Shown one piece after another: positions 6,129 to 27,959 of a DNA stretch of 64,000 nt. This DNA is from Thiomicrospira pelophila DSM 1534. GTDB taxonomy: Bacteria; Pseudomonadota; Gammaproteobacteria; Thiomicrospirales; Thiomicrospiraceae. The translations under genes and the position numbers were made by a program. The notes below the pieces were generated by a model. The model did not search any database and was not told the origin of the DNA. It saw nothing but the letters and a program-made list of their open reading frames with translations. Every line of letters starts with the position of its first letter. Within the stretch, counting starts at the first letter, position 1. The DNA is taken from positions 1,426,001 through 1,490,000 of the forward strand of contig NZ_JOMR01000001.1 of the NCBI RefSeq assembly GCF_000711195.1, written 5' to 3'.

Positions 6129-6914
6129 CTAAAACAGCGCCACCAAGCCCACGCCTGCGCCGATAATCCAAAACGCGATTTCCATGCGTTTATAGCGCGC
6201 GTTTTGCGCTGTGTGCTGTTTGGCAGTGATTAGGTCGGACAAGTCTTGCACTTGGGTTTTCATTTCATCATGCACTTGCGGCAATTCAAATAGTTTCGAC
6301 AGAATCGGCCAGGCCTGGCGGAGTTCGTGGCGATCAATTAACACTGGATTGCTGTAGTAGTTTTTTAAGTCAAACGCTAAAATCGCCTCGCGGTAATCAA
6401 TCATTTTTTCTAAATCTTTGGAATCATAGGCCTGTGCGACTTTTTGCAATTGCATCTCAGCATATAAGTTATAGCTTCTTGCCAGCAAGTACAGTAACTG
6501 ATAGCGTACAAATACATCCGGCTTGCCAAACTTCGGCCAAATCCATGCACCCTTTTCAGCAAACACTGCTTTTACCGTTGTGCTTTCAAAGGTATTCGCT
6601 TCACAAACGGCTAACGTGCTACTACCGCGCAACGATTGTGAGATCGCCTCTGGTACGGCATCTTTATCCGCTTGATAAAAATCGAATATCAAACTCGGCT
6701 TGGCCTTGTAATCATTTAAGGCTTGCCCCGCGTCACCATTCGCAACCAGCGCAAAATAAATACAACCAAAAAAGCCGATATACTCACGGTTTTTCGCATC
6801 TTGATAAAACTTCACATCCACCAACAAACTAGGCTGCAAAAACTTATGCGAATTCGCAACCGGTTTTGCATCAGCCGGCAAAAGGGATAATTGAATCGCG
6901 CGGGTTGGGGTCAT
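6129..6914 (-). CDS. Uncharacterised protein with C-terminal membrane anchor
   Basis: 261 residues, start ATGA-overlapped with the flippase stop (6911-6914), so translation is probably coupled to wzx. The body is soluble-looking, with a charged helical region around residues 150-240. The last 19 residues (AFWIIGAGVGLVALF region) form a single membrane helix, placing the body in the cytoplasm as a tail-anchored protein. I do not recognise a family or a catalytic motif. Position in the locus might hint at a role with Wzx or as cargo, but this is only proximity. One copy of the 10-bp CCAGGCCTGG palindrome lies inside at 6309-6318. Confidence 0.65.
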   Translation of the reverse strand: MTPTRAIQLSLLPADAKPVANSHKFLQPSLLVDVKFYQDAKNREYIGFFGCIYFALVANGDAGQALNDYKAKPSLIFDFYQADKDAVPEAISQSLRGSSTLAVCEANTFESTTVKAVFAEKGAWIWPKFGKPDVFVRYQLLYLLARSYNLYAEMQLQKVAQAYDSKDLEKMIDYREAILAFDLKNYYSNPVLIDRHELRQAWPILSKLFELPQVHDEMKTQVQDLSDLITAKQHTAQNARYKRMEIAFWIIGAGVGLVALF

Positions 6915-8335
6915 GATTTATTCTTTAATCTCTTAATAACTTTTTCTACCACAAAACTATACGCCTGTGTGCTTTGGGTTTTGAAAGCAATCAGCCCTAT
7001 CAACAATACGGTTGAATAAAAGATGATTTGAAGCAAACCCACATCGATTAAATTAATCAGAAGACTCAAAACTAACAACAGTAAAATAAACCCATACATC
7101 CGCCAGCGTTCAAAATTCACCCATAGCTTTGAGCTCGCTTCGGTACGAATGGTGAAGAAGATAAAAAAAGCTAAAGCCGAACCCATTGCAGCGCCTGCTG
7201 CCCCGTATATCGGAATCAAAAACCAGTTTGCAATCGCGTTGAACACTAATGCTACCATTGCGGCAAGCAAAGAAAACATCGTCTTGCGTTGAATACCAAT
7301 TCCCACACCGGTCGATTCTGACAAGGTATAAAGCAACGGATAGGCCATCGCCGCCAATAGTATGTACTGAACACTTATATATTCAGGTGGCAATATATAG
7401 GGAACCACCCAAGAAAACATACCTGCCAAAGACCAAATCAAAATCACCGCCAGAGTGACAAAATCCATCACATTTTTAATTTTCTTTGGGTCAACGCCCT
7501 CAGACGCCCATTTATACACTACTGGCGCCCAAATCGTCGAAAAAATAGCTTGAAAGACTAAAGCCGCACCTGCAAAACTCACAGCAACGGAATAAATTCC
7601 CAACTCTTCAAACGAGGAAATGGTTCTTAAAAAGACCTTATCCATAGTGGTTAAACCCCAAAACGCCACACCGCTACCAATCAACGGAATGGCATAGCGG
7701 ATCATTTGATTTTGCTTGGCTTTATCAATGGTCGCCGTGAGCGCGGGTATCCAGTCTTTACGCGTATTCCACGCATAAACCATAAACACCAACGATAAAG
7801 CCAACACATTAGCAAGCATCAGGTTTTCAAAAATAGCCGCGGCACCAAGCCACATATAGCCCAGCACAATCACCAAAAATAATAATTTTGGCAATAATTG
7901 ACTCATAGAAAAAGCCAAACCACGCTCCTGCATTCGCAAAATCAAACTCAAAAAACGCGAAAAGAAGCTGAGCAAAATCGCTAACACCATTAAGCCACTT
8001 AATAAAAGCGAATCCATGCCAAACAACACTTCAGAAATCGACCAAGGACTTAAAATCACCGCAACAAGCGCAACCAGTAGAATCAAAAACCCTGGAATAA
8101 AGACCGCTTTCAGCAGGCCAGGTTTATCTTGCACCTCGTGGAACTCGCGAACATAGGCCTGATCCAAACCCAAACTAAATAATAGCAACGCAAAACTTAT
8201 TGTTACATTCAGCATAGTCAAACGCCCAATATCTTCTGGCGAAAACAACCACGCCACAATCGGCAAGGTGATCAACCCCAATACCGCCGCGCCAATCGGC
8301 CCAACTGAAAAGGCTAAGACTTTACGGGGGTTCAA
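6911..8335 (-). CDS. wzx: O-antigen flippase (Wzx, MATE/MOP superfamily)
   Basis: 474 residues with about twelve membrane segments, start MNPRKVLAFSVGPIGAAVLG. The first helices carry the pattern LGLITLPIVAWLFSPEDIGR followed by SLGLDQAYVREF, typical of the polysaccharide biosynthesis/flippase family. Wzx moves the undecaprenyl-diphosphate-linked repeat unit across the inner membrane, where Wzy (1861-2907) and the chain-length protein act. It overlaps the GT56 gene upstream by 4 nt (8332-8335) and the unknown gene downstream by 4 nt, a tight cluster. Confidence 0.9.
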   Translation of the reverse strand: MNPRKVLAFSVGPIGAAVLGLITLPIVAWLFSPEDIGRLTMLNVTISFALLLFSLGLDQAYVREFHEVQDKPGLLKAVFIPGFLILLVALVAVILSPWSISEVLFGMDSLLLSGLMVLAILLSFFSRFLSLILRMQERGLAFSMSQLLPKLLFLVIVLGYMWLGAAAIFENLMLANVLALSLVFMVYAWNTRKDWIPALTATIDKAKQNQMIRYAIPLIGSGVAFWGLTTMDKVFLRTISSFEELGIYSVAVSFAGAALVFQAIFSTIWAPVVYKWASEGVDPKKIKNVMDFVTLAVILIWSLAGMFSWVVPYILPPEYISVQYILLAAMAYPLLYTLSESTGVGIGIQRKTMFSLLAAMVALVFNAIANWFLIPIYGAAGAAMGSALAFFIFFTIRTEASSKLWVNFERWRMYGFILLLLVLSLLINLIDVGLLQIIFYSTVLLIGLIAFKTQSTQAYSFVVEKVIKRLKNKS

Positions 8336-9507
8336 GCATGCTCTCCAAGGTCAAGGTGAAAACTCACCAAGTTCTTGGTTTTCAGGTCTATCGCTTGTTT
8401 TGACCAGTGCTTATATAGTATTGCGATATTCGTTTGTATCTCTTGTTCTGTTAAAGGTGCTTTAAGCAGGTCTGGTTGTTGTTCTAATTCCATTATTGTG
8501 TTCAAAATAGCACCATCGTTTTTTAGCATTTGATAGGTAGGATTCTCTTCACGCAAAAACACTCTAGCGCCTAAGTAAAGCATAATCACGATGTTCCCTA
8601 CGGCTTGTTGGCGTTTGTGATTCATAATCGCAAATCCGCATTGTTTTAAAAGCGCCACATAGTCATCAATCGCCATAAAATCGACAACCGGATGAAAACG
8701 TTCACCAAAATTTAACTCACCTTGTTCAAGCATCGCTTTTTTATAACACGCATCGCCATAACTTAACGGTGCGACAATTTTTGAATGTAGTCCAATTACA
8801 TCTTCATTAGCTTGTATTAGCTCGAACGCCTCAAGATGATTATTAGTAAACGAGGCGCTATTACCCAATAAAATCGCATCGCCATTCACCCTTTCACCGA
8901 TAAAGTTTTTGACTAGGCTTTCTTCCAGCGAACCGTAATTCCAAGGCATTAAAGCTGGCAAATGCGTAATCAACCCCGCGTTTGCAACCAGTTTGTGTTC
9001 TTCAGATAACACAGGCGAAAAAGAACCAATGCGTTTTAAGGCTTTATTTTTAAAAGCGAGTTCTGTCAGCTTTCGCGCCACCTTTTTTGCTAATTTGACT
9101 GGATGTAAAAAATCAGCGAATGATGTTTTTCTGCAAGATTTTTTTAATGGCAAGGTTTCGGATAACAATAACGCATCTTCGTTTTTGTAAATATAGCTGT
9201 AATAATCATACCCCCAACCCAACCACGCAAACTTAACCCCTGCTGGTGCCAACGCCACCAATGGGAACTTAAACAAGTCAAAACCATGAATCACGACCAA
9301 GTCAAAGGCTTTCAACTTTTTTAAAAAAGACGGCTTCAAGGTATCAAAAAAAGTAAACTCTAAATCGCGGTGATTTTTAGATACATGGCCATCATGCCCA
9401 TTCGCAAACATCCAAACTGTGTTTTGGCCTGGATACACATTTTCGAAGGTCGTTAAGGCATGGCTTATAAATTTGTTGTCTGTGGTTATGTGTAAAATCT
9501 TTTTCAT
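8332..9507 (-). CDS. GT56 family 4-amino-deoxysugar transferase, second paralogue (WecF-like)
   Basis: 391 residues. The C-terminal half has the GT56 (TDP-Fuc4NAc:lipid II transferase) signature: GNSASFTNNHLEAFE, then PLSYGDACYKKAML, then MNHKRQQAVGNIVIMLYLGA. Enzymes of this family transfer Fuc4NAc to a lipid-linked acceptor at the cytoplasmic membrane face. A paralogue lies at 27959-29002. That copy sits beside wecE and is the natural Fuc4NAc transferase. This copy is in the module with the 2,3-dehydratase, so I infer its donor may be the predicted TDP-4-acylamino-2,4,6-trideoxyhexose. Stop and start overlap its neighbours by 4 nt. Confidence 0.85.
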   Translation of the reverse strand: MKKILHITTDNKFISHALTTFENVYPGQNTVWMFANGHDGHVSKNHRDLEFTFFDTLKPSFLKKLKAFDLVVIHGFDLFKFPLVALAPAGVKFAWLGWGYDYYSYIYKNEDALLLSETLPLKKSCRKTSFADFLHPVKLAKKVARKLTELAFKNKALKRIGSFSPVLSEEHKLVANAGLITHLPALMPWNYGSLEESLVKNFIGERVNGDAILLGNSASFTNNHLEAFELIQANEDVIGLHSKIVAPLSYGDACYKKAMLEQGELNFGERFHPVVDFMAIDDYVALLKQCGFAIMNHKRQQAVGNIVIMLYLGARVFLREENPTYQMLKNDGAILNTIMELEQQPDLLKAPLTEQEIQTNIAILYKHWSKQAIDLKTKNLVSFHLDLGEHA

Positions 9508-10905: not shown

Positions 10906-11325
10906 TCATGCAGGTTCAGGTACATACAATTCTGCATCACCAACAATCACTATCTTTCCACTCACATAACAAACTGTTTTAAAAAATACTCTTCTTTTTA
11001 TTTCATCTTTTTTGGTTACGGTGACTTCAGCCGTCACTGTGTCATTAAGATAAACGGGTCTTAAAAACCTCAAGTTTTGGCCAACATAAACACAACCTTC
11101 GCCTGGCAACTCTTTGCCAAACAACGCTGAAAAAAAACTGCTTGAAATCATTCCATGCGCGATTCTTTTCTTAAACTGCGATTTCTCTGCATATTCATCA
11201 CTCATGTGAACGGGGTTATTATCACCAGATAAACCTGCGAAGGTTTTAACATCGGCATCTGTTATAGTCTGGCTATAACTTCGCATCATTCCAACCTCTA
11301 TGTCATCAAACGAAACTTTTGCCAC
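10906..11325 (-). CDS. MaoC-like (R)-specific hydratase
   Basis: 139 residues, a single hot-dog domain. The catalytic loop FAGLSGDNNPVHMSDEYA (about residues 30-47) holds the Asp and His of (R)-specific enoyl-CoA hydratases; HGMISSSFFSALFG and FLRPVYLNDTVTAEV complete the fold. Such enzymes add water to a 2-enoyl-CoA to give an (R)-3-hydroxyacyl-CoA. The gene lies 1 nt from the acyltransferase gene inside an amino-sugar cassette. I therefore infer that it supplies a 3-hydroxyacyl group (for example 3-hydroxybutyryl) for N-acylation of the sugar, as a hydratase does in the anthrose pathway. A housekeeping role remains possible. Confidence 0.85.
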   Translation of the reverse strand: MAKVSFDDIEVGMMRSYSQTITDADVKTFAGLSGDNNPVHMSDEYAEKSQFKKRIAHGMISSSFFSALFGKELPGEGCVYVGQNLRFLRPVYLNDTVTAEVTVTKKDEIKRRVFFKTVCYVSGKIVIVGDAELYVPEPA

Positions 11326-11326
11326 T

Positions 11327-11950
11327 TTATTCTCCTAGTGTTTTGATAACTCTAGCTGGGTTTCCCACCGCAAATTTGTTGGACTCCAAATCCTTACTCA
11401 ATACACTTCCCATTCCAAGTATAGAGTCTTCACCAATGGTTATTTTTTCTACCAAAGTTGCACCGGTACCTACATTGACACCATCACCAATAGTTATATT
11501 TCCTGAAATTGAACAATTTGGTGCAATTGTCACAAAATCACCCACTTTCACATCATGTCCAAGCGTTGTATTAAGATTAACAATACTATGTTTACCAATT
11601 TGAACATCAACTGTCGCTATTACACCCGCACAAATAATTGAACCAGTACCAACAAAACTGGCATCAATAATTGCAGAAGGGTCAATTAAGGTTGTAAATT
11701 CAACACTACCGCCTAACTTTTCAAAAATAGTGCGGCGACCATTTGGCGAACCTACCCCAATAACAAAGTCACATTCAAGGTAGTTTTTATAATCTGAAAC
11801 TTTTCCAATAACGGGTACACCCATGATAATAGCGCCCTGCTTTTCTGGTGTGTCATCTAAAAACCCTTTAACAACAAGCCCAAGTCGCTGTGCCAACCAC
11901 AAAACCTCTTTTCCAAAACCACTAGCACCGATGATAATTAGCTTCTTCAT
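11327..11950 (-). CDS. PglD/NeuD-like sugar N-acyltransferase
   Basis: 207 residues. The N-terminal Rossmann-like half starts KKLIIIGASGFGKEVLWLAQ and includes DFVIGVGSPNGRR. The second half is a left-handed beta-helix of hexapeptide repeats (VDVQIGKHSIVNLNTTLGHD, ITIGDGVNVGTGATL) ending with AVGNPARVIK. The His in LGHD is the usual catalytic base. PglD-type enzymes acylate the 4-amino group of UDP- or TDP-4-amino-deoxysugars. It is downstream of a 4-aminotransferase and next to a MaoC hydratase, so the acyl group may be acetyl or 3-hydroxyacyl. Its ATG overlaps the stop of the aminotransferase remnant (ATGA). Confidence 0.88.
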   Translation of the reverse strand: MKKLIIIGASGFGKEVLWLAQRLGLVVKGFLDDTPEKQGAIIMGVPVIGKVSDYKNYLECDFVIGVGSPNGRRTIFEKLGGSVEFTTLIDPSAIIDASFVGTGSIICAGVIATVDVQIGKHSIVNLNTTLGHDVKVGDFVTIAPNCSISGNITIGDGVNVGTGATLVEKITIGEDSILGMGSVLSKDLESNKFAVGNPARVIKTLGE

Positions 11951-12096
11951 AAACCTTCCTTTAAAGCATTTATAACTTGTTTCTGTTCTTCATCATTCAA
12001 ATCCGGATAAATCGGCAAACATAAAACCCGGCTGGCAATATCTCTTGAAACTAAGCAGGCCTGATTGTTTTGAATTTGTGGGATCCAAAGTATCAT
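11947..12096 (-). pseudogene. C-terminal remnant of a DegT-type aminotransferase
   Basis: A 49-codon frame opens with an ATG overlapping the stop of the intact aminotransferase (12093-12096) and ends by overlapping the start of the acyltransferase. Its text SRDIASRVLCLPIYPDLNDE matches the C-terminal end of DegT/DnrJ/EryC1 aminotransferases and parallels SESIAKRILCLPLYKNLQID in the intact gene just upstream. The rest of that protein is missing. I read this as the tail of an earlier aminotransferase gene left behind when a different allele replaced it. It could still be translated but would not be active. Confidence 0.75.
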
Positions 12097-13181
12097 GCAA
12101 TCAATCTTATTATTTTTTCGATATCGTCAATCTGTAGGTTTTTATATAACGGTAAACACAGTATTCGCTTTGCAATACTTTCTGATTCAGGCATCGGTTG
12201 ATATTCGACAATATGACCTAGTGTGTTTAATGAAGGATAAAAATATCTTCTAGGGAAGATTTTTTGCTTGTTTAATTTTTTCTCTGCCTCCAATAATGTT
12301 TGCTCGGTTTCAAAAATAACGGGAAAGTAGGAATAATTGCACCCATCTCCGTTTAATTTTTGGAAGCTTAACTTTGAGTTGGCTTGCAGTGCGTCACGAT
12401 AAAGCAGGTATTTGTGTTTTCTGTCGGCTAAGACTTCATCAAAATACTTTAGATTCGCTAAACCTAATGCAGCATGAACTTCAGTCATTTTGCCGTTGAA
12501 GCCATCTTCAACGATGTCTTTGTTTTGATCGTGTCCAAAAAAACGTATGCGTTTTAGTTTTTCGTGCAGGTCTAAGTTGGTGGTTATACAGCCGCCGCCT
12601 TCTGCGGTGTTAAGCAGTTTGGTGCCGTGTAAGCTGGTTGCGGAAATATCACCCCATTCTAAAACGCTTTTGCCGTTTACCGTGGTGCCGATGGCGTGTG
12701 CGCCATCATAAATGACTTTGAGGTTGTGTTTTTTTGCTATGGCTTCGATTTGTTCGACATGACATGGATTGCCGAATACATGCACCGGCATAATCGCCAC
12801 AGTTTTATCGGTAATTAAGGCTTCAATTTTAGCCGGGTTGATATTTAAGGTTTCCGGGTCTATGTCGCAAAAAGCAGGGGTACAGCCCTCCCATTTTATG
12901 GCGCTGATGGTGGCTACCCAACTGAATGGCGTGGTGATGATTTCGCCTTTTAACTCTAAGGCTTTGATCGCCATTTGAATGGCAATGGTGCCATTGGTGA
13001 CGGTAACGAAGTTTTTAATATTTAATGTATTACAGAGTTGTTTTTCCAACTCTTGCACCAATGGCCCATTGTGCGTGAGTATGCCGCTTTGCCATACGCC
13101 TTTTAAATAATCCACATATTCTTCGAGTGGCGGTAATGAAGGTTGTGTTACATAAATGGGTTGATTATTTTGCGCGTTCAC
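12093..13181 (-). CDS. DegT/DnrJ/EryC1 PLP aminotransferase (VioA-like, predicted 4-aminotransferase)
   Basis: 362 residues. PLP would bind Lys188 in SLHGTKLLNTAEGGG; VTNGTIAIQMAI, TTPFSWVATISA, FCDIDPETLNI and VIYDGAHAIG are the other family landmarks. The N-terminus IYVTQPSLPPLEEY resembles VioA and relatives, which aminate C4 of TDP-4-keto-6-deoxyhexoses. Upstream genes remove O2 and reduce C3, so its likely substrate is TDP-4-keto-2,6-dideoxyhexose and the product a TDP-4-amino-2,4,6-trideoxyhexose. It overlaps the ketoreductase gene by 17 nt. Stereochemistry cannot be read from the sequence. Confidence 0.88.
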   Translation of the reverse strand: MNAQNNQPIYVTQPSLPPLEEYVDYLKGVWQSGILTHNGPLVQELEKQLCNTLNIKNFVTVTNGTIAIQMAIKALELKGEIITTPFSWVATISAIKWEGCTPAFCDIDPETLNINPAKIEALITDKTVAIMPVHVFGNPCHVEQIEAIAKKHNLKVIYDGAHAIGTTVNGKSVLEWGDISATSLHGTKLLNTAEGGGCITTNLDLHEKLKRIRFFGHDQNKDIVEDGFNGKMTEVHAALGLANLKYFDEVLADRKHKYLLYRDALQANSKLSFQKLNGDGCNYSYFPVIFETEQTLLEAEKKLNKQKIFPRRYFYPSLNTLGHIVEYQPMPESESIAKRILCLPLYKNLQIDDIEKIIRLIA

Positions 13182-14133
13182 TTAATTCACCTATCAGCCT
13201 GGCTTGGTTAATGTTTTGATGGTATTCATCGTTTAAATTTTGTTTGGTATTGATGCAGTTTGCAAAGTGGTTGAGCATATTAACAAAGTGATTGTCTTCT
13301 GGTAACACAATGCTTTCTTTGCCTTCTTGGGTTTCTATAATCACCTCGGGCTTTACGCCTGGGCCAGCTGTAAAAATTCTTGTAGCAGTAAGTTTGCCTT
13401 TTGTGCCCCATAATTCCAGGTTGTTTTGGTAAAAATGGTCAAAGCCAAACGCGATTTGTGAAGTTAGCTTGCCATTTTCTTGTTTAACAAAAGCGCTTCC
13501 CCAAATATCGACTTGTTTGTCGGCGGGAAAGGCTAAGCTTGAACTATCAACATAAATATCGTTGCCGAGAAAGATTTGGCTGATTTTTATTGGGTAGGCG
13601 CCAGCATCTAGCAACGCCCCACCACCGAGTTGTTTGTGGTATCGGATATTATCGGCATCTGGGAACGGTGGAAAGCCAAAGCTGGCACGTATATTTCTTA
13701 ATTCGCCTAATTTGCCTGATTTTAATACTTGTTGGATGTACGCCATTTGTGTGTGAAAACGAAATTGGAAATTTTCAATCAACACAAGCCCTTTCGATTG
13801 TGCCAAGGTATTAAGTTCTTGTGTTTGCTCTAGGCTACAGGTCATGGATTTTTCAACTAGAACATGTAGGTTGTTATTGAGTGATTTTTTTATCCATTCA
13901 TAATGCAGGCTATTCGGCAGAGGGATATAAACGGCGTCTAATGTCGCGTTAATCAGTTCGTCATAACTCTCAAAGACCTTGGTTTCAAAGTCGCTTGCGG
14001 CTTGTTTTGCTTTTTCCGGGTTACGACTGGCTATTCCGTATAATTCAAAGCTTGGTGTTTGTTTAATAGCCGGAATAACAAAGCGTCTTGCAATGCTTGC
14101 ACAGCTTAGGATGCCGATTTTAATTTTGTTCAT
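13165..14133 (-). CDS. Gfo/Idh/MocA oxidoreductase, predicted TDP-sugar 3-ketoreductase
   Basis: 322 residues. It has an N-terminal NAD(P) fold (KIGILSCASIARRFVIPAIK, slightly off the usual GxGxxA), the conserved VLVEKSMTCSLEQT with the EK pair (about residue 93), and a C-terminal alpha/beta domain with GGGALLDAGAYPIKIS. In actinomycete 2-deoxysugar pathways, Gfo/Idh-type reductases such as KijD10 and SpnN reduce the C3 ketone formed by the 2,3-dehydratase. Here the gene directly follows such a dehydratase, with starts and stops overlapping by 14 nt, so the same step is inferred. Family assignment is firm; substrate is contextual. Confidence 0.87.
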   Translation of the reverse strand: MNKIKIGILSCASIARRFVIPAIKQTPSFELYGIASRNPEKAKQAASDFETKVFESYDELINATLDAVYIPLPNSLHYEWIKKSLNNNLHVLVEKSMTCSLEQTQELNTLAQSKGLVLIENFQFRFHTQMAYIQQVLKSGKLGELRNIRASFGFPPFPDADNIRYHKQLGGGALLDAGAYPIKISQIFLGNDIYVDSSSLAFPADKQVDIWGSAFVKQENGKLTSQIAFGFDHFYQNNLELWGTKGKLTATRIFTAGPGVKPEVIIETQEGKESIVLPEDNHFVNMLNHFANCINTKQNLNDEYHQNINQARLIGELSERAK

Positions 14134-15541
14134 TTTCGCCTCGCGTGTAACTGATCGTGGCTATTAGGTTGCGTGCTTGAATGTTTAAATAGTTATTAAA
14201 CTTTATAAAGGTATGCAGTTGATTGAGTGTCATCCAAATAAAGTTATCGGGTAATTGTTCACCGAAGGTTTCGTCTGCAATGACAATGGTGTTGCGATTT
14301 TGTTCTTTGTAAAAGCGCCCGCCTTCCTCGGATTGCAGGGTATCGAAATATATTTGCTCGGGTTTTGCATTGAGGATGTAGTCTAAAAATGGAATGGTGT
14401 TTTGGGGTGAGGCTTTGTAATCCCCTGTCAGGGTTTGCACTGTAGGGGCAAATTCAACAATATCGTGGTTGCCGCATTCGACTTTGGCTTGAACGGCAAA
14501 GTGCATTACTCCATCAATGGGTTTGCAAATAAAGGCACACAATCCCTCTTGTGCTGGCTCGACCATGGGTTGTGACCAGGTGACGACTTCACGGTTTCCG
14601 ATTTCTACATCTACCCCTATGATTTTGAAGTATTTGTTATCAGGCCTGGTGATTTCGGTTTCGGTTACTTGCCAGCCGTGCATTTGCGATAAGGGGATTT
14701 GTTTCACGGTTAGATCATTAACGCTTTTGATTTGAGTCATAAAGGTAATAATTTCTTCAATCGTGTGCTGTGCTTTGTTATTGATTAGCGCAGATTGTAG
14801 GAAGCTTTGCTCTATCGATTTTCTTTGATTAAGGTAGCTAAAAAATTCAACAGTTTGTTGGTCGTAGCCGCCAAATTCAATGCCGGATACAACGGTTCTT
14901 GCATCCATGTTTACAAGATTATCGATTTGCATGAGTTTTTTTAGTTGACCAAGCGTTAGCCAGATAAAATTTGGATGAACTTCTATTTCTTGGTCTATTT
15001 TAATAATGATGTTTCGATTGCGTTTTCTTAGGAATCTTGCTCCCTGCTCGGACTGGAGTTGGTCAAGGAGTATTTGGTCTTTGCTGGCGTTTTGGAAGTA
15101 TTCAAGATAAAGGGGTTTTTTGCCACCGTGTGTTTGCAGGTAGTTACTTCGTGTCGCTTGAAGCGTCGGCGAAAGTTGAACAAAGTTGACATTGCCCGGT
15201 TCAATCTTGGCTTGTACCAAAAAATGCAAAACACCGTTTATTTCTTTTACGATAAACCCTAGAAAACCTATTTCGGGTTGATTGATAATCGGTTGATCCC
15301 AGGTCGGCTGGCTTCCCCAAGTGGTTTCAACCCGAATGCCGTCGATGGTAAAAAATCGTCCGGTTTCATGTCTAAGGTTGCCAAGTTCTTCGTCAAAATA
15401 CCATTTTTGTAAATTTTTAAACGGCACTTTGTTGATGGATACATTGACGATGTCGTTTTGGTGTTTGACCCAATCGACTACCGTTGTAATTTCTTTGGTT
15501 GTTAGGGCGCTTTTTAAAAAGGCGTATTGTTTATTCTTCAT
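14120..15541 (-). CDS. NDP-hexose 2,3-dehydratase
   Basis: 473 residues in two tandem homologous halves, as in the family. The first half has LGNLRHETGRFFTIDGIRV, INQPEIGFLGFIVKE, QAKIEPGNVNFVQLSPT, LQSEQGARFLRKRNRN and NLVNMDARTV. The second half repeats these as VEPAQEGLCAFICK, QAKVECGNHDIVEFAPTVQ, LQSEEGGRFYKEQNRN and NYLNIQARN. These match dehydratases such as TylX3, EryBVI and SpnO closely. The enzyme removes the C2 hydroxyl of TDP-4-keto-6-deoxyglucose, the committed step to 2,6-dideoxysugars. These enzymes are best known from actinomycete glycosylated antibiotics, so finding one in a Gram-negative O-antigen locus is unusual. It lies between rmlC and the ketoreductase. Confidence 0.95.
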   Translation of the reverse strand: MKNKQYAFLKSALTTKEITTVVDWVKHQNDIVNVSINKVPFKNLQKWYFDEELGNLRHETGRFFTIDGIRVETTWGSQPTWDQPIINQPEIGFLGFIVKEINGVLHFLVQAKIEPGNVNFVQLSPTLQATRSNYLQTHGGKKPLYLEYFQNASKDQILLDQLQSEQGARFLRKRNRNIIIKIDQEIEVHPNFIWLTLGQLKKLMQIDNLVNMDARTVVSGIEFGGYDQQTVEFFSYLNQRKSIEQSFLQSALINNKAQHTIEEIITFMTQIKSVNDLTVKQIPLSQMHGWQVTETEITRPDNKYFKIIGVDVEIGNREVVTWSQPMVEPAQEGLCAFICKPIDGVMHFAVQAKVECGNHDIVEFAPTVQTLTGDYKASPQNTIPFLDYILNAKPEQIYFDTLQSEEGGRFYKEQNRNTIVIADETFGEQLPDNFIWMTLNQLHTFIKFNNYLNIQARNLIATISYTRGENEQN

Positions 15542-15562
15542 ATACTGTCAGCTTCGTTTATC

Positions 15563-16105
15563 TTAGTGTTGCACTGGTAAATCGGGATGATTCCGATCTT
15601 TATCCGATAAAGTTAATTGGTCATGGGGCAGAATCCAGTCAATTTTTAATTTGTCTGAATCAAAGGCAATCCCGCGAATGTTTTCACTGGAAAAATAGTT
15701 ATCCACTTTGTAGGTATAAACGGCTTGCTCACTTAACACGACAAAGCCGTGCGCAAAACCGCGTGGTATAAACAGTTGCTGTTTCTTGATCGAGTCCAAT
15801 TTTACTGCAATGTGTTGAAGATAAGTCGGACTACCCTGACGAATATCTACCGTGACATCCAAAACTTCTCCCTCAATCACCCTTACCAATTTGCTTTGCT
15901 CATAGGGTGGTAATTGGTAATGCAAACCTCGCAACACGCCTTTGGTGGATTTAGATTCATTGTCTTGGCAGAAGTTGACTTTGTAATCGACGGCTTGTTC
16001 AAACTTGTCTTGTCGAAAGGTTTCCACAAAGTAACCACGATGATCGCCAAGTATTTGAGGCTCAATTAGTATGATTTCAGGTATGGACTGAGGTATAAAG
16101 TTCAT
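15563..16105 (-). CDS. rmlC: dTDP-4-dehydrorhamnose 3,5-epimerase family protein (RmlC)
   Basis: 180 residues, a cupin epimerase of normal length. GVLRGLHYQLPPYEQSKLVR contains the catalytic His62; Tyr132 lies in VYTYKVDNYFS, and RGFAHGFVVLSE is conserved. It normally turns dTDP-4-keto-6-deoxyglucose into the L-lyxo form for RmlD. No rmlD gene is in the window, and this gene sits directly before the 2,3-dehydratase. It may therefore epimerise C5 (or C3) of a 2-deoxysugar intermediate, giving an L-sugar, as epimerase homologues do in antibiotic clusters. The usual Trp after RGI is Phe here (GIAFDSDKL), a mild deviation. It starts 4 nt after the rmlA stop. Confidence 0.9.
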   Translation of the reverse strand: MNFIPQSIPEIILIEPQILGDHRGYFVETFRQDKFEQAVDYKVNFCQDNESKSTKGVLRGLHYQLPPYEQSKLVRVIEGEVLDVTVDIRQGSPTYLQHIAVKLDSIKKQQLFIPRGFAHGFVVLSEQAVYTYKVDNYFSSENIRGIAFDSDKLKIDWILPHDQLTLSDKDRNHPDLPVQH

Positions 16106-16109
16106 TTAT

Positions 16110-16973
16110 TTACTTCAACAAGTCAGCAAGATACTGACCATAGCTGTTTTTAGATAGGGCTTTGGCCGTTTGCATGACTTGTTCATCACTTAGCCAGCCA
16201 TTGCGCCAGGCGATTTCTTCTAAACAGGCAATTTTATAGCCTTGGCGTTTCTCGATAGTTTCCACAAACATGGCCGCTTCTAACAGGCTTTCGTGGGTGC
16301 CTGTGTCGAGCCAGGCAAAACCTCGACCTAGCAATTCGACATTAAGGTCGCCCCGCTCCATATACATTTGGTTGATGGTGGTGATTTCGAGTTCACCTCG
16401 GTGGCTAGGTTTAACTTGTTTGGCAATATCAATGACATCATTGTCGTAGAAATATAGGCCGGTGACGGCAAAATTGGATTTTGGGTTTTCTGGTTTTTCT
16501 TCTAGGCTGATGGCTTTTTGGTTTTGGTCAAATTCGACCACACCAAAACGTTCGGGGTCTTTTACTTGATAACCGAATACGGTGGCTCCAGCAGGCCTGG
16601 CGGCGGCGCGCTTTAGAATCGGTGAGAAGCCTTGTCCCCAGAATATGTTATCTCCTAGCACTAAACATACGCTATCGTTGCCAATAAACTCTTCGCCAAT
16701 GATAAAAGCTTGGGCAAGGCCGTCTGGGCTGGGTTGAATGGCATAGGTTAGGTTGACGCCAAAATCTTTGCCATCGCCGAGCATTCTTTGAAAACCGGCT
16801 TGGTCTTCTGGCGTGGTGATGATCATTATGTCTTGTATGCCCGCGAGCATCAACACGGATAGCGGGTAATAGATCATCGGTTTGTCGTAAACCGGTAACA
16901 ACTGTTTGGATACGCCGCGTGTTATCGGGTATAAACGTGTGCCGGAACCGCCAGCGAGGATGATACCTTTCAT
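16110..16973 (-). CDS. rmlA: Glucose-1-phosphate thymidylyltransferase RmlA, copy 1
   Basis: 287 residues from the ATG at 16973, which overlaps the rmlB stop (ATGA). A longer in-frame start would only add rmlB-antisense-like residues. [20 protein letters not shown] (residues 8-27) is the nucleotidyltransferase signature, with LGDNIFWG and [11 protein letters not shown] following. It makes TDP-glucose from dTTP and glucose-1-phosphate in the cytoplasm. A second copy at 29054-29923 is almost identical except for the last 30 or so codons (here ending [10 protein letters not shown]). This copy feeds the 2,6-dideoxysugar branch by position. Confidence 0.96.
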
Positions 16974-18184
16974 TGTTTGCTTCCTAATCGTTCTCTTTGG
17001 TAACTGCCGTCTTGCACATGTTGGCACCAGACCTGGTTGTCGAGATACCACTGTACGGTTTTACGGATGCCCGATTCAAAGGTTTCTTGTGGTGTCCAAC
17101 CGAGTTCATGTTCGATTTTGCTCGCGTCGATGGCGTAGCGCATGTCGTGTCCGGGGCGGTCAGTTACAAAGACCTTTAGGTCTTTGTAATGATTAATTTT
17201 TAATGTTGAATTTTTAATGGTTTCGTTTTGCGCAATTGGGGCAAGTTCATCGAGAATCTCACAGATTTTATCCACGACTTCGATGTTTTGTTTTTCGTTG
17301 TGGCCGCCGATATTGTAGGTTTGACCTACCTTACCGTTTGTTGCCACTAACACGAGCGCTCTAGCGTGATCTTCTACATACAACCAATCACGGATTTGAT
17401 TACCTTTTCCGTACACAGGGAGTGGTTTGCCTTCTAGGGCATTAAGAATCATTAACGGGATGAGTTTTTCCGGAAAGTGATACGGACCATAGTTGTTTGA
17501 GCAATTGGTAACTAACGTTGGTAACCCATAGGTTCTTTGCCAAGCCCGCACGATGTGATCAGAGGCCGCTTTAGACGCACTATAAGGGGAGCTGGGTGCA
17601 TAAGGCGTAGTTTCGGTGAATAGAGGCAATATACTTTTGTCATTTTGAGGCACAGACGAAACAACGAAGTCAGCGCGTAAGCCTGAATCTTGTCGGCCTG
17701 CCAGAGATCCTTCGCTTCGCTCAGGATGACCAAGTGTTGTTTCATCAGGATGCGGTAGATCGCCATAAACTTCGTCAGTTGAAATATGATGAAAGCGGAA
17801 GTTGGTTTTTTTGTCGCCTTCTAACTGATCCCAGTAGGCGCGAGCTTGTTCCAATAAAGTATATGTACCAACTATGTTGGTTTGGATAAACTCACCCGGA
17901 CCGTCAATCGAACGATCCACATGCGATTCTGCGGCAAGGTGCATGACTAGGTCTGGTTGGTGTTCGTTAAACACCCGCTTGAGTTCAGGTGCATCGCAAA
18001 TATCAACTTGTTCAAATGCATAGCGCGGGTTATCACTGACGCTTACAAGTGATTCAAGATTGCCCGCGTAGCTGAGTTTATCGACATTGACGACTGAGTA
18101 GTCAGTATCGTTAATAATGTGCCGCACCACTGCAGAGCCTATAAAACCGGCACCGCCAGTTACGAGAATTTTTTTACGATTCAT
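16970..18184 (-). CDS. rmlB: dTDP-glucose 4,6-dehydratase RmlB, copy 1, with two in-frame repeat insertions
   Basis: 404 residues from the ATG at 18184 ([11 protein letters not shown], preceded by AGGAA). It has Rossmann [21 protein letters not shown] with the catalytic [13 protein letters not shown] with YxxxK, and [14 protein letters not shown]. Usual length is about 355; the surplus comes from two insertions. The first (17629-17740, about 37 residues) carries GHPERSEGS between PHPDE and LPLFTETT, a place where typical RmlB has a short loop. The second (near 17191-17220) reads KNSTLKINH just before VTDRPGHD. Both leave the catalytic motifs intact. It makes TDP-4-keto-6-deoxyglucose. Confidence 0.95.
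17191..17220 (-). repeat. AT-rich in-frame repeat in rmlB copy 1
   Basis: On the minus strand this reads in frame as KNSTLKINH. The same peptide-coding repeat occurs in rmlB copy 2 (30141-30170) and in the 4-epimerase gene (20281-20310), always in the same frame. Confidence 0.8.
17629..17740 (-). repeat. HPERSEGS-type insertion in rmlB copy 1
   Basis: Contains GATCCTTCGCTTCGCTCAGG (plus strand), read in frame as GHPERSEGS on the minus strand. The rest ([18 protein letters not shown]) looks like a longer version of the same interspersed element. The rmlB copy at 30579-30660 has a different insert at the same loop. Confidence 0.8.
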
Positions 18185-18494
18185 TTTTATACGCAGTTCC
18201 TGCAATCTGCTCTAATTCTTTTTGCAAAAGTTCGTATTCTTCGCGTTTGCGTTGGATGAAGCTTTCGGTGAGTTCAATCCGTTCACGAATGCCTTGCGGC
18301 GTGAGCACATAACGATAACCAAGTTTATTAGGGTTTTGTGCAAAGCGTTCGGCTTTGACTAGGCCTTTATCTATAAGCGCTTTGAGCACATAGTTGGTTT
18401 TGCCGATACTGAATCCTAGCTTTTGTGCCAGCGTACGTTGGTTTGGCTCTGTGCTTATGTGTCGCAAGGTTTTTAGGCGGGTTTCTGAATCCAT
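18174..18494 (-). CDS. EPS-associated MarR family transcriptional regulator
   Basis: 106 residues, a winged-helix protein. [20 protein letters not shown] is the helix-turn-helix (about residues 21-40) and [20 protein letters not shown] the wing and linker, followed by a coiled-coil helix. It matches the small MarR-type regulators found at the front of exopolysaccharide and O-antigen loci. Its stop overlaps the rmlB copy 1 start region by 11 nt, so it is co-transcribed with the second sugar module and may regulate it. Upstream (18495-18783) there is no gene, only repeats. Confidence 0.85.
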
Positions 18495-18495
18495 T

Positions 18496-18533: not shown

Positions 18534-18547
18534 TTAGTCTTTTGGGT

Positions 18548-18783: not shown

Positions 18784-19383
18784 TTAGATTGCAGCGGTTT
18801 GTAGTTTACGTTTGCGAATAGCAGAGCGAATAAGTGCTATAAACACACCCAACATACACCCTAAGACAAAGGCTACTGCCAAAATGAGTTTTAACTTATC
18901 TTTGGGCGACACCCGTTCAACGCTGGCCTGCCCGACTACCTGGGTTGGTTGAATTACATTTTCTTTTAACTTGCTAGAGGTAAATTTTTCGTGACGTTGC
19001 AAAACAAAATCTATCGCCTCTTGCAGTTTATCAGCCGAACTCTCTTTATCTATGCTTGATGTTTCGATCTCTAATACTTTGACCGACGTTCTAGGAACAT
19101 TAGTTTCAGCATTAAATTGTTTACTGATGATTAGTGACAGATCCTCAGGACGTTCTATCGTATGGATCACGCCATCATGTGATGCATAGGCGCCGATTTC
19201 GATTAAAGCTTTGCCTTGAAACGTATCAGGTTTAACAGGCTGGCTAACCGTAAACACAAAAGCCAATATCGGCGCAATTAGAGTAGTGGCCAAGATTAAC
19301 CACTTTTGCTGCCACAATGTTTGAAACAGCTCAAATAGGTCTATTTCATCGTCTTGGTAATTCATCGGTTGTTGGTTCTGCAT
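18784..19383 (-). CDS. wzz: Wzz-type polysaccharide chain-length protein (short)
   Basis: 199 residues. The N-terminal cytoplasmic stretch DDEIDLFELFQTLWQQKWLI leads into a first membrane helix (about residues 30-50). A periplasmic domain with a coiled region follows, then a second membrane helix (about 165-187) before a basic tail. This is the Wzz topology, but enteric WzzB proteins are about 325 residues, so the periplasmic part is short. It should set O-antigen chain length with Wzy. A 44-bp palindrome follows its stop, separating it from the MarR-led module. Confidence 0.85.
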   Translation of the reverse strand: MQNQQPMNYQDDEIDLFELFQTLWQQKWLILATTLIAPILAFVFTVSQPVKPDTFQGKALIEIGAYASHDGVIHTIERPEDLSLIISKQFNAETNVPRTSVKVLEIETSSIDKESSADKLQEAIDFVLQRHEKFTSSKLKENVIQPTQVVGQASVERVSPKDKLKLILAVAFVLGCMLGVFIALIRSAIRKRKLQTAAI

Positions 19384-23045: not shown

Positions 23046-24377
23046 CTATGAATCTGCAGTCAAGCGCGTTGCATTTTTTTGCTGAACTAAAAACACAAAA
23101 AAGGTCGCGAAAAATATAAAGAACACCACGCCTGAGCGTAAATGCAACCAAGCCTCAGTAAGCATTGAAATAGATGAACTGACAACAAACAGCAGTCCAA
23201 TTAATGCCCAAGGAGAATTTAAATTACTATTTTGTTTAACGCGATGTTTTAAATTTTTCCCAAAAAACACCAGCAGAAAACCAAGTGTGATAACAAAAGA
23301 TAACAAACCAAGAACCCCTCGGGTATAGGCCTCCTGAATAAACTGATTATGTAAGTGCGTTTTTGAAAAGGCTCTTGGCGAACCATAGATTCTTTGCATA
23401 ATTGGGGCCGAGAGTTCTTGCTGTTTTTGTTCAGCATTATCAACCCCAACACCCGTTAACGGATTCTCTAAAAAGCCTTTTATACCTACTTCGTACATCA
23501 CCAATCTCAACCCAACGCTTCCGCCCGTACCACTTCCACTAAGGTAATTGTTAAAATCCACAACCATTGCATCCCATCGTTTTTCAAATCGATCACCAAA
23601 TTGAGTCACAATAGTCATTAAGCTAGCTGCAATAAATAACATCATTATTAAGGTTTTTTTTGTATTTTTTGGCTTATTTTGTTTAAAGTGGAGCCAATAA
23701 AATACGGCCCAGACAATTAATGCCTCAATTAGTCCTGCCCAAGCTGAACGCGTGTTCGAAAGAATTACAGCACTAAGCGCCACAAATATAGAAAAAATCA
23801 GTATTAGGGTCGTTAAACTGCCTTTTTTGATCGCCCAAATAAAACCACCTAACAACACAACTAAAAATAAATTGCTATAGATGCCAAAGCGCAATACATG
23901 AGGAGTCGCCGCCGAACCAAATCGGTGTGTAAATAACTTTGCAAAATCACCCAATAAATAAAGCTCATAACCCAGCGCAAAAATGATAGCAAACGAACCA
24001 CCGATTATCCCCCACCAAATCACATCCTCCGAAGGTCGTAATTGCCAGAACATAACCCAAATATAAATAAAGACTAAAAGTGCAGTAAATCTTGCATTGA
24101 CTAGATTTAACGATGACTCTCCTAACGGTAAAAACCAAACCATGGGAGCAAGGGCGAGGAAAATAAAACAGCTCACTAATACAAATAACCATTGCCAAGG
24201 CAAAATTAACGCTTCTCTTAAAGGTCTTCTATAGACCAAAATAGCTAAACCGAGTAATAGTGTAAAAATGGCTTCGAATGAAATCAGCTTCGATAGAAAA
24301 ATTGACCAAAATGAAACTGAAATAATAAATATTTTAGTCAACTCACTTAGCATTGGTTTTAGGGAGTTAATAGTCAT
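23046..24377 (-). CDS. waaL: O-antigen ligase (WaaL/Wzy_C family)
   Basis: 443 residues with about twelve membrane segments. The large periplasmic loop carries FLENPLTGVGVDN and then KTHLHNQFIQEAYTRGVLGL (about residues 340-360), the core of the Wzy_C family with its conserved His. Such proteins are O-antigen ligases, joining the finished polysaccharide to lipid A-core, or O-antigen polymerases. The EpsG-type polymerase at 1861 fills the Wzy role, so ligase is the better reading here. It lies between GT2 genes in the first module. Confidence 0.8.
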   Translation of the reverse strand: MTINSLKPMLSELTKIFIISVSFWSIFLSKLISFEAIFTLLLGLAILVYRRPLREALILPWQWLFVLVSCFIFLALAPMVWFLPLGESSLNLVNARFTALLVFIYIWVMFWQLRPSEDVIWWGIIGGSFAIIFALGYELYLLGDFAKLFTHRFGSAATPHVLRFGIYSNLFLVVLLGGFIWAIKKGSLTTLILIFSIFVALSAVILSNTRSAWAGLIEALIVWAVFYWLHFKQNKPKNTKKTLIMMLFIAASLMTIVTQFGDRFEKRWDAMVVDFNNYLSGSGTGGSVGLRLVMYEVGIKGFLENPLTGVGVDNAEQKQQELSAPIMQRIYGSPRAFSKTHLHNQFIQEAYTRGVLGLLSFVITLGFLLVFFGKNLKHRVKQNSNLNSPWALIGLLFVVSSSISMLTEAWLHLRSGVVFFIFFATFFVFLVQQKNATRLTADS

Positions 24378-26263: not shown

Positions 26264-27409
26264 TTATTCAACCTGACTAAAAAATTGAATTACACTACTT
26301 ATAACTCTTGCAGACTCAAAACCTTGCATCCCGAAATACATCGGCAATCTAACTAATCGCTCACTGTCATTAGTTGTAAAACGGTCTCGACCATTAAATA
26401 GGCCAAACTTTATACCCGCAGGAGCCGAATGGAGTGGAATGTAGTGGAATACCGCCATTATATCCTTGGCTTTTAGGTAGTCGATAAAGGCTGTGCGCTG
26501 TTCCAGGTCTTTTAACTTTAGATAATACATATGCGCATTATGCTGACAATATTCTGCAATGATTGGTAAATCCACAAGGCTTGCTTGCTGTAGTGGCTTA
26601 AAAGCTTCGTGGTATGCATTCCACGTCGCCAAACGATTTTGGTTAATTTCATTGGCCTTTTCTAATTGCCCCCAAAGATAAGCGGCTTGTAACTCACTAG
26701 GCAGATAACTACTTCCTAGGTCCACCCAGGTATATTTGTCTACCTGCCCTCTAAAAAATTGGCTACGGTTAGTACCTTTTTCACGAATCACTTCGGAGCG
26801 TTGTAAAAAACGTTCATCGTTAATTAATAACAACCCGCCCTCACCGCCGCTGGTGTAGTTTTTGGTTTCGTGAAAACTAAACACCCCCAGATGTCCAATC
26901 GTTCCCAGTGGCTTACCTTTGTATTGGCTCATCATGCCCTGTGCAGCATCTTCCACCACAAACAACTCATGACGATTAGCGATGCTCATAATTGTATCCA
27001 TTTCGCACCCCACACCTGCATAATGTACAGGCACAATCGCTTTGGTTTTGTTAGTAATCGCGGCTTCAATTTTGGTTTCATCGATATTCAGGGTATCGGG
27101 GCGAATATCCACAAACGTAATCTTTGCGCCACGCAATACAAATGCATTGGCAGTACTGACAAAGGTATAGCTGGGCATAATGACTTCATCGCCCGGCTGA
27201 ATATCAATCAAAATCGCTGCCATTTCCAACGCCGCTGTGCAAGAAGGGGTAAGCAAGGTTTTGGGGCAACCCAACTTTTCTTCAAACCAGGCCTGACACT
27301 TTTTACCAAAAAATCCATCTCCCGAAATTTTATTGCTCTGCATCGCCTGTAAAACATATTGCTGCTCATTACCGGTTAAAGGCGGCTTATTAAATGGAAT
27401 CATGTTCAC
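26264..27409 (-). CDS. wecE: dTDP-4-amino-4,6-dideoxygalactose transaminase
   Basis: 381 residues, closely following E. coli WecE/RffA: MIPFNKPPLTGNE, LLTPSCTAALEMAA, VIMPSYTFVSTANAFVLRGA, SFHETKNYTSGGEGG with PLP Lys183, and REKGTNRSQFFRGQVDKYTW. It aminates C4 of TDP-4-keto-6-deoxyglucose to TDP-Fuc4N. Its substrate comes from the rmlB-rmlA pair at 29.1-31.1 kb, and the next gene upstream encodes the N-acyltransferase. It overlaps that gene by 20 nt. Very high confidence by sequence and context. Confidence 0.95.
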   Translation of the reverse strand: MNMIPFNKPPLTGNEQQYVLQAMQSNKISGDGFFGKKCQAWFEEKLGCPKTLLTPSCTAALEMAAILIDIQPGDEVIMPSYTFVSTANAFVLRGAKITFVDIRPDTLNIDETKIEAAITNKTKAIVPVHYAGVGCEMDTIMSIANRHELFVVEDAAQGMMSQYKGKPLGTIGHLGVFSFHETKNYTSGGEGGLLLINDERFLQRSEVIREKGTNRSQFFRGQVDKYTWVDLGSSYLPSELQAAYLWGQLEKANEINQNRLATWNAYHEAFKPLQQASLVDLPIIAEYCQHNAHMYYLKLKDLEQRTAFIDYLKAKDIMAVFHYIPLHSAPAGIKFGLFNGRDRFTTNDSERLVRLPMYFGMQGFESARVISSVIQFFSQVE

Positions 27410-27959
27410 TCTCTAAATACTTCTTCTCTAATTCAAGCAAATCTTTTTTACGGTCTTTAATTTTCTTAGCTGGTGAACCTACATAAATTGACCAAACTTC
27501 TGTTGATTTTAAAACTAATGAATTTGCACCAATTGAACCACCATCCCCAACTTCAACACCCGGCATAATTATTGATCCGGCACCAATGATGGAGTGTTTA
27601 CCAATTTTTACCGGCAACATAATTTCATTTTTAAAATCTTTTGGAATTGTCGAGTTTGTCATCGTCACACCAGAGTAATCATCTGATTGAGTAAAAATTT
27701 TAACTCCATAAGCTAGCGCCACAAAATCCTCTATAACTAAACCAAGCTCTCCACCAGCAACTAAACATTGAGGTGTTATATGCACATTTCGTCCAATTTT
27801 TATATTGCCTGAAATAACGCAAAAATCATCAATTCGTGAATAGTCACCAATTTCTATTTGGTCGGCATTATAAATGCTGGCCCGATCACTGATTTTGACA
27901 TTTTTTCCCAGCGATTTAAAACCCAGGTCAGCCAATTGTAATTCTGTTAAATATGCCAT
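27390..27959 (-). CDS. Hexapeptide-repeat N-acetyltransferase, predicted for TDP-Fuc4N
   Basis: 189 residues forming a left-handed beta-helix: VKISDRASIYNADQIEIGDY, ISGNIKIGRNVHITPQCLVA, IMLPVKIGKHSIIGAGSIIM and IGANSLVLKS. A charged C-terminal helix follows. Hexapeptide acyltransferases of this size acetylate amino sugars. Between wecE and a GT56 gene the obvious task is acetylating TDP-Fuc4N to TDP-Fuc4NAc, replacing the GNAT-type WecD of E. coli. The start overlaps the GT56 stop by one base (TAATG). Confidence 0.82.
   Translation of the reverse strand: MAYLTELQLADLGFKSLGKNVKISDRASIYNADQIEIGDYSRIDDFCVISGNIKIGRNVHITPQCLVAGGELGLVIEDFVALAYGVKIFTQSDDYSGVTMTNSTIPKDFKNEIMLPVKIGKHSIIGAGSIIMPGVEVGDGGSIGANSLVLKSTEVWSIYVGSPAKKIKDRKKDLLELEKKYLESEHDSI

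Follow-up and report, generated by a model that had tools for sequence, protein, structure and literature searches.

The sugars of antibiotics and those of bacterial coats are for the most part viewed as unrelated subjects. Why, then, does a set of genes resembling those for the 2-deoxy sugars of antibiotics lie in a polysaccharide locus of a sulfur bacterium, the gammaproteobacterium Thiomicrospira pelophila DSM 1534? The genome is a single contig of 2.1 Mb (G000; NZ_JOMR01000001.1), and the DNA studied is a 64-kb stretch of it (positions 1,426,001 to 1,490,000), referred to here as the window. Judged from their sequences, eight genes of the window probably make an N-acylated thymidine diphosphate (TDP)-4-amino-2,4,6-trideoxyhexose for a polysaccharide of the Wzx/Wzy type, by means of a module that was apparently swapped into the locus.

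The chemistry of such a route is known. It is the setting for which the literature searched, with most subscription journals outside it, yielded no description, be it of an O-antigen or of another surface polysaccharide made with the help of a 2,3-dehydratase. In the portions available of a 2022 review of dehydratases, 2,3-dehydratases are named from antibiotic pathways only (PMC8987622). The available portions of two further papers name other enzymes, a guanosine diphosphate (GDP) and a cytidine diphosphate (CDP) 3-dehydratase (PMC6124807, PMC4898787). An account of marine lipopolysaccharide (LPS) structures, in part covered, gives no sugar whose C2 carries neither oxygen nor nitrogen (PMC3210612).

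Gene content and order

The ORF listing of the window gives eight intact open reading frames (ORFs) on the minus strand, the first starting at about 18184 and the last ending at 10906. In the order of transcription they are rmlB, for TDP-glucose 4,6-dehydratase (16970..18184; TIGR01181 497 bits, cut-off 365); rmlA, for glucose-1-phosphate thymidylyltransferase (16110..16973; TIGR01207 518 bits, cut-off 361); rmlC, for an RmlC-type epimerase (15563..16105; TIGR01221 215 bits, cut-off 156); and the genes for a two-domain nucleoside diphosphate (NDP)-hexose 2,3-dehydratase (14120..15541), a KijD10-like Gfo/Idh 3-ketoreductase (13165..14133), a DegT/DnrJ/EryC1 aminotransferase predicted to act at C4 (12093..13181; PF01041 294 bits), a PglD/NeuD/VioB-type sugar N-acyltransferase (11327..11950; TIGR03570 205 bits, cut-off 161) and a MaoC-type hydratase (10906..11325; PF01575 94 bits, cut-off 27). 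Neighbouring genes overlap or are separated by gaps of at most about 20 bases; the one larger gap, of 142 bases, separates the aminotransferase from the acyltransferase.

A preliminary description of this DNA had given the same set in the same order between 10906 and 18184, and the intact ORFs and the family models over cut-off confirm it. The order stands as described. A small correction concerns rmlB and rmlA: their ORFs span 16970-18205 and 16110-17051, and inner ATGs at about 18184 and 16973 are the probable starts.

The 2,3-dehydratase and the 3-ketoreductase

The dehydratase had been described as a close match over both of its halves. This is borne out, as the two PF03559 halves score 266 and 240 bits over a cut-off of 25 (500 bits for the whole protein), and EvaA (PDB 4j7g) is matched at E=3.7e-104, alone among solved structures. 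Residues E114 and E165 align with E139 and E190 of EvaA in the 4j7g alignment, and both glutamates are kept in all 83 aligned dehydratase rows. The two glutamates of pocket A are essential in EvaA, according to the portion available of PMC8987622. The window protein thus shares with EvaA the two-domain architecture and both essential residues. It differs in its place in the tree, among the non-actinobacterial dehydratases, and in its neighbours, as the next two genes encode a C3 reductase and an aminotransferase of the C4 type.

The reductase finds its best match in KijD10 (PDB 3rbv, E=6.2e-65; the next protein, 1.3e-26), which is deposited as a sugar 3-ketoreductase. Residues K95 and Y180, which we take to be the catalytic lysine and tyrosine of the KijD10 type, are kept in 59 of 59 aligned rows, and a deposited KijD10 variant (3rcb) alters the lysine equivalent to K95. 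The two reductases belong to the same sequence family and keep the same residues, in different genomic contexts. Because of these dehydratase and reductase E-values, set against that of the next protein, the eight-gene observation lies far beyond chance.

Two other dehydratases are noteworthy. At L009:1351-2187 (G068) a single-domain protein of 279 amino acids has the active half only, with both glutamates present, and resembles a version lacking the inactive half of EvaA; it adjoins a Gfo/Idh reductase and a WecE-like aminotransferase. At L010:9024-10313 (G091) a divergent, lone PF03559 protein of 430 amino acids had no sugar-pathway neighbours recognised by the queries used.

Distribution and origin of the module

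The dehydratase family is rare among relatives of T. pelophila (4 of 93 genomes, itself included) and was matched in the phylum sample in 1 of 398 genomes, namely its own; none of 14 control genomes had it. A contig scan, seeded with relatives of the window and not a census, gave 226 stretches and 130 relatives. The best 80 of these were kept, comprising 47 actinobacterial and 33 other loci. The 33 belong to Bacteroidota (20), Pseudomonadota (4), Kiritimatiellota (2) and seven other phyla with a single member each. A Wzx gene adjoins the module in three of the loci (L014, L033, L041).

Dehydratase and reductase genes are direct neighbours in 32 of the 33 non-actinobacterial loci and in 18 of the 47 actinobacterial ones. 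An orthologous aminotransferase (at least 50% identity, within 2.5 kb) is present in 15 of the 33 versus 0 of the 47. The enzyme set is also present in bacteria of several other phyla and is not a one-off. Another species of the genus (G004) has the same module with proteins 90-96% identical, split over two contigs, and the genes are open as far as the contigs reach.

The locus had been called one of actinomycete-antibiotic type. This holds for the chemistry and fails for the source. The window dehydratase is 67% identical to that of an Aquimarina locus versus at most 43% to actinobacterial ones (best segment), and the aminotransferase is 59-74% identical to those of other non-actinobacterial genera versus at most about 32% to actinobacterial ones. 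In quick trees, with support from the Shimodaira-Hasegawa-like approximate likelihood ratio test (SH-aLRT) only and with L009, L010 and L080 as long branches, the dehydratase groups with Aquimarina (SH-aLRT 94) and Bacteroidota, and 15 non-actinobacterial aminotransferase rows form a clade (SH-aLRT 99). The nearest relatives of the module are found in Bacteroidota and Gammaproteobacteria. A recent import from an actinomycete was rejected, since dehydratase and aminotransferase both nest among non-actinobacterial rows.

Several observations pull the other way and temper the picture of a uniform, separate module. The reductase is only 26-27% identical in some Bacteroidales (L022, L023, L028, L030), L019 has no reductase match, and the match in L042 (27%) is missing from the called ORFs. 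Support for separating actinobacterial from other dehydratases is an SH-aLRT of 89, under the 95 mark, and the sister of the aminotransferase clade consists of two actinobacterial rows (L055 and L090).

The aminotransferase and the position of the amine

The best solved match of the aminotransferase is 2po3 (E=7.7e-57), which we take to be DesI, followed by 7b0m (1.9e-45), a sugar aminotransferase of unstated position, and a perosamine synthase (5.6e-45). QdtB, presumably a C3 enzyme, is matched at a lower level (2.4e-37). The title of an NCBIfam model gives DesI as a C4 enzyme, and the perosamine synthase PerA acts at C4 (PMC7725333). The Schiff-base lysine is K188, and the aligned position holds lysine in 41 of 45 rows and histidine in 4. 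A role as a 3-dehydratase of the ColD/SpnQ type was rejected, as lysine and not histidine is kept.

The model scores themselves speak against a simple assignment. The aminotransferase reaches 262 bits versus a DesI equivalog cut-off of 650 and is, by this score, a relative of the DesI family and not a member, so the C4 assignment rests on context. That context was surveyed as the gene in the third slot, after dehydratase and reductase, in 32 loci (L011 left out; the dehydratase of L032 and L045 was miscalled by the simple gene caller). An aminotransferase fills the slot in 14, a short-chain dehydrogenase/reductase (SDR) in 7 and a formyltransferase in 2, and aminotransferase and SDR never occur together. 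One short ORF intervenes between reductase and aminotransferase in L030. The slot lacks these genes, or the locus ends there, in L016, L019, L026, L035, L042 and L080. As the reductase is followed by one or the other of these two but never by both, each plausibly acts on a C4 ketone, if the reductase uses C3.

The alternation is less tidy than these counts suggest. The SDR label denotes a blastp match to one Pfam-typed member; weak matches (21-26%) at other places in L024, L031 and L041 were left uncounted, and in L015 an SDR (46%) precedes the dehydratase and a methyltransferase stands third.

What follows the aminotransferase also bears on the position. A formyltransferase lies directly after it in L018 and L041, with scores of 307 and 314 to PRK07579 (dTDP-4-amino-4,6-dideoxyglucose; cut-off 238), and a C4-type enzyme behind the module points to C4. 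The formyltransferases of L012 and L013, which count on the other side, fall far under that cut-off. In L024 and L028 a hexapeptide protein follows the aminotransferase.

Could the amine sit at C3 instead, with the reductase acting at C4, as in 3-amino-2,3,6-trideoxy sugars of the vancosamine or kijanose kind? DegT aminotransferases for C3 and C4 are homologous, QdtB is among the matches, and EvaA, the only solved match of the dehydratase, presumably belongs to a pathway with a 3-aminotransferase. The order of the solved matches, the deposited function of KijD10, the alternation of aminotransferase with SDR, the C4-type formyltransferases over cut-off in two loci and a relic of an earlier DesI-like enzyme at the same place (below) all run counter to this, and we regard a C3 amine as very unlikely. 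The product class TDP-4-acylamino-2,4,6-trideoxyhexose, predicted in the preliminary description, is favoured by the shared slot and by the formyltransferases found after the module elsewhere.

A relic aminotransferase and probable gene replacement

A remnant of about 40 C-terminal codons from a different, DesI-like aminotransferase gene (11947..12071, minus strand) fills the 142-base gap before the acyltransferase gene, and its stop overlaps the acyltransferase start; the preliminary description does not mention it. As DNA, this relic matches the end of an intact aminotransferase gene in G023 (E=2.3e-20). Shorter matches lie in G007 (two places) and G004, which makes 4 of 57 genomes with T. 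pelophila itself. A PDB search with the relic peptide alone is weak (best E=0.23), and the first five matches are all DegT-type aminotransferases by name, so that the assignment leans on the DNA match. In G023 the intact gene directly follows rmlB-rmlA, and rmlA is 92% identical to that of the window. The intact relatives of the relic in G007 and G023 score 286 and 295 bits with the DesI model (cut-off 650).

The relic tail, together with the intact G023 gene directly after rmlBA, suggests that the module replaced a DesI-like aminotransferase. We infer that the exchange ran in this direction and that it converted a 4-amino-4,6-dideoxy sugar to the 2-deoxy form. In G004 the tail lies behind that genome's own copy of the aminotransferase and is followed by a 194-residue protein, a KASIII protein and a hexapeptide protein. 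The acyltransferase and MaoC genes are absent from that place, and the genes behind the tail vary.

Two further aminotransferase tails are found in another species of the genus (G007, L120:7382-7476 and 11158-11232), one of them lying between an integrase-core ORF, some 300 bases away, and a PglD-like gene that starts shortly after it. The end of the aminotransferase gene seems to be a repeated exchange point. Such unstable and often rearranged loci, with a relic here and repeated tails in relatives, would also fit a module that is a partly non-working import, the coat keeping its old 4-amino-6-deoxy sugar or none. All genes are intact with their catalytic residues, however, and the presence of the module in G004 with proteins 90-96% identical argues for selection; we therefore hold a non-working import to be highly improbable.

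The acyltransferase, MaoC and the acyl group

The MaoC gene starts one base after the acyltransferase gene. The genome has two PF01575 proteins, and the genes of both stand directly after PglD-like acyltransferase genes. The second MaoC gene (L095:12540-12968, outside the window) and its PglD-like neighbour are flanked by a Bac_transf gene and a DegT aminotransferase gene, with a WbpM-like dehydratase gene behind, a set that we take to be of the bacillosamine type. Both MaoC proteins carry SGDxNPxH (SGDNNPVH in the window copy), presumably the hydratase motif of (R)-specific enoyl-CoA hydratases of the PhaJ/MaoC kind. The window MaoC stays under the NCBIfam cut-offs of the models matched. It was matched in 0 of 57 other genomes of the genus and family, in 9 of 35 further genomes of the class, and in 10 of 93 overall including its own. 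The position of both genes after PglD-like genes suggests a hydroxyacyl group and ties MaoC to sugar N-acylation here. Our guess for the group is 3-hydroxybutyryl, which amino sugars of marine polysaccharides, bacillosamine included, are known to carry.

Several points count against this part of the proposal. The genome has no crotonase (PF00378), and hence no evident enoyl-CoA source for MaoC. Published pathways to (R)-3-hydroxybutyryl forms of 3-amino-3,6-dideoxygalactose (Fuc3N) and 3-amino-3,6-dideoxyglucose (Qui3N) name, in the portions available, the transferase only (FdhC, QdhC). Bacillosamine of a marine polysaccharide does carry 3-hydroxybutyryl in the S form, as given in the covered part of PMC3210612, and an R-specific hydratase would not give that form. 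A DNA search for an E. coli homologue of the acyltransferase gave no match.

The acyltransferase and MaoC might then serve another sugar or plain acetylation, with MaoC doing an unrelated job. The missing crotonase agrees with this, as does the coupling of the acyltransferase to the relic aminotransferase rather than to the present one, and G004 retains the module with different genes behind it. The placement of both MaoC genes of the genome directly after PglD-like genes and the absence of a window MaoC match from all 57 related genomes count against it. We consider this alternative unlikely, though deserving of real weight, and retain a MaoC-assisted hydroxyacylation as the preferred reading.

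Other acyl-related genes stand behind the sugar module elsewhere. In a Bacteroidetes bin (L033:7705-9089) a MaoC gene is followed by genes for WbqC and a lyase of the CitE/HpcH type, which hints at a further kind of acyl group; this MaoC, beside the lyase, is only 23% identical to that of the window, which counts against the proposal. In G004 (L123:1350-2273) a KASIII (FabH-like) gene lies near the hexapeptide protein gene, as if another acyl chain were made there.

RmlC and the duplicated rmlBA genes

A second rmlC accompanies rmlD about 9 kb before the window (C1:1415801-1417200) and is 51% identical to the window rmlC. The window RmlC is thus free for the trideoxy-sugar pathway and not needed for rhamnose, and a role as a rhamnose enzyme only was set aside. 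Its standing as a fixed part of the pathway was likewise not supported. In G004 rmlA is directly followed by the dehydratase gene, and the gap of about 150 bases between them shows no rmlC relic. Near non-actinobacterial dehydratase genes (flanks of up to 10 kb, shorter at contig ends), rmlC was matched in L012 only, and the other aminotransferase-bearing loci show none. These absences weaken any general role of RmlC in the route.

The rmlBA pair is duplicated in direct orientation (16127-18169 and about 29078-31089; second rmlA-rmlB pair at 29054..31098, minus strand), with DNA 98.8-98.9% identical. The 11 kb between the copies carries wzy and genes for 4-acetamido-4,6-dideoxygalactose (Fuc4NAc), and recombination between the copies could remove or exchange this stretch. 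Two dispersed repeats, of the AATTTTTAATGTTGAATTTTTAAT kind and the AGAGATCCTTCGCTTCGCTCAGGATGACCAA kind, occur within the coding sequences of rmlB and of an epimerase-type gene, where they are seemingly read in frame (17186-17232, 17703-17733, 19691-19723, 20281-20313, 20486-20518), and at an intergenic site (18492-18579). The rmlB copies differ at one such site. A pattern search for a repeat in the window gave no match.

Destination of the sugar

The window encodes a Wzx-type flippase (6911..8335; PF01943 79 bits, PF13440), a Wzz-type chain length determinant (18784..19383; PF02706 37.5 bits, cut-off 25.5), a Wzy/O-antigen ligase family protein with the Wzy_C domain (23046..24377) and transferases of the GT2 and GT56 families, all of those with coordinates here on the minus strand. 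Bac_transf and WbpM-like genes lie just before the window. The parts of a Wzx/Wzy-type locus, namely flippase, polymerase, chain-length protein, transferases and initiating transferase, thus stand in one run. The genes just before the window presumably serve precursors of N-acetyl-L-fucosamine (L-FucNAc), N-acyl bacillosamine and rhamnose.

A GT56 (WecF-like) gene next to wzx (8332..9507, minus strand; PF07429 54 bits, cut-off 25) is, by its family and place, a candidate transferase for the new sugar. WecF models match its product best in the C-terminal half, at 148 bits versus a cut-off of 457. Its divergence, and the two genes that separate it from MaoC, are points against the assignment. 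A second cassette about 8 kb away, on the same strand, has the near-identical rmlBA, a WecF-type GT56 gene (27959..29002; 453.1 bits, cut-off 457; PF07429 80 bits), a gene for a hexapeptide acyltransferase (27390..27959; PF00132) and one for a WecE-type TDP-4-keto-6-deoxyglucose 4-aminotransferase over cut-off (26264..27409; TIGR02379 684, cut-off 435; PRK11706 653, cut-off 375). From these families it should provide TDP-Fuc4NAc and its transfer.

The term O-antigen locus, used in the preliminary description, is likely right as far as the run of Wzx, Wzz, Wzy_C and transferases goes. Attachment to lipid A is the part that does not follow, as the genome has one PF04932 protein, the one at this locus, and no separate WaaL-type ligase was found with the PF04932 model, the only one used to seek it. 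The sugar might instead be meant for a capsule, a protein glycan or a small secreted molecule. Besides the single Wzy_C protein, this would suit the relatives of the module, mostly Bacteroidota, some of which glycosylate proteins (PMC8698959, portion available). Yet flippase, chain-length protein, Wzy_C protein, several transferases and an initiating sugar transferase in one run point to an O-antigen, and no polyketide or peptide synthase is among the 20 window and 9 L095 proteins typed with Pfam. A use other than in an O-antigen is rather unlikely in our estimate.

Proposed route and relationship to known pathways

In the route that we propose for the Wzx/Wzy-type polysaccharide, RmlA and RmlB would form TDP-4-keto-6-deoxyglucose, from which the EvaA-like dehydratase would remove the 2-hydroxyl to give a 3,4-diketo-2,6-dideoxy sugar. 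The KijD10-like reductase would reduce C3, and the DesI-like aminotransferase would add the amine at C4, yielding TDP-4-amino-2,4,6-trideoxyhexose as in the vicenisamine route (VinABDEF). N-acylation by the PglD-like enzyme would follow, using a hydroxyacyl group produced with the aid of MaoC, and RmlC may, as a guess, set C5 to give an L sugar. The GT56 (WecF-like) transferase, Wzx and Wzy would then build the sugar into the repeat unit. The module of dehydratase, reductase and aminotransferase would have its source in a pool outside the actinobacteria, made up mostly of Bacteroidota. On arrival between rmlBA and the acyltransferase gene it would have displaced the greater part of the DesI-like aminotransferase gene, and the 4-amino-4,6-dideoxy sugar would have given way to a 2-deoxy one. 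The observed part of this account comprises the gene content, the families, the catalytic residues, the conservation of the module and the relic; the chemical steps, the acyl group, the choice of transferase and the direction of the exchange are deduced from these.

The vicenisamine pathway of vicenistatin in Streptomyces has VinA, B, D, E, F and G (PMC11284099, portion available). Its first five members are clustered enzymes of the same kinds as here, compared by kind and not by sequence: TDP-glucose synthase, 4,6-dehydratase, 2,3-dehydratase, 3-ketoreductase and aminotransferase. The window has an acyltransferase in place of the N-methyltransferase VinG, an additional RmlC and a polysaccharide locus instead of a polyketide cluster. 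The pathways to TDP-4-amino-4,6-dideoxyglucose and -galactose (TDP-Qui4N and TDP-Fuc4N) of O-antigens and enterobacterial common antigen (VioA/VioB, WecE, WecF) share the TDP-4-amino-6-deoxy sugar, the PglD/VioB-type acyltransferase and GT56, whereas the window route drops the 2-hydroxyl by way of 2,3-dehydratase and reductase. The 3,6-dideoxyhexoses abequose and colitose are likewise dideoxy sugars of LPS. They lose the oxygen at C3 through ColD/E1 enzymes with a histidine (PMC8987622, portion available), in contrast to the EvaA-like loss at C2 in the window route.

Implications

On balance we lean towards a broader reading, in which the non-actinobacterial 2,3-dehydratase/3-ketoreductase clade supplies an undescribed class of surface 2-deoxy sugars (N-acyl or N-formyl 4-amino-2,4,6-trideoxyhexoses, and neutral 2,6-dideoxyhexoses in the SDR loci), with a module swap in Thiomicrospira that left a scar. 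Glycosides of 2-deoxy sugars are acid-labile and could be lost in the usual hydrolysis, a possible reason for their having been overlooked. The module would offer a ready source of enzymes for making TDP-4-amino-2,4,6-trideoxy sugars, and the scar shows in concrete form how coat loci trade one sugar for another. Should the predicted function of the module hold, surface polysaccharides of several phyla contain 2-deoxy sugars, possibly as an overlooked component of bacterial coats.

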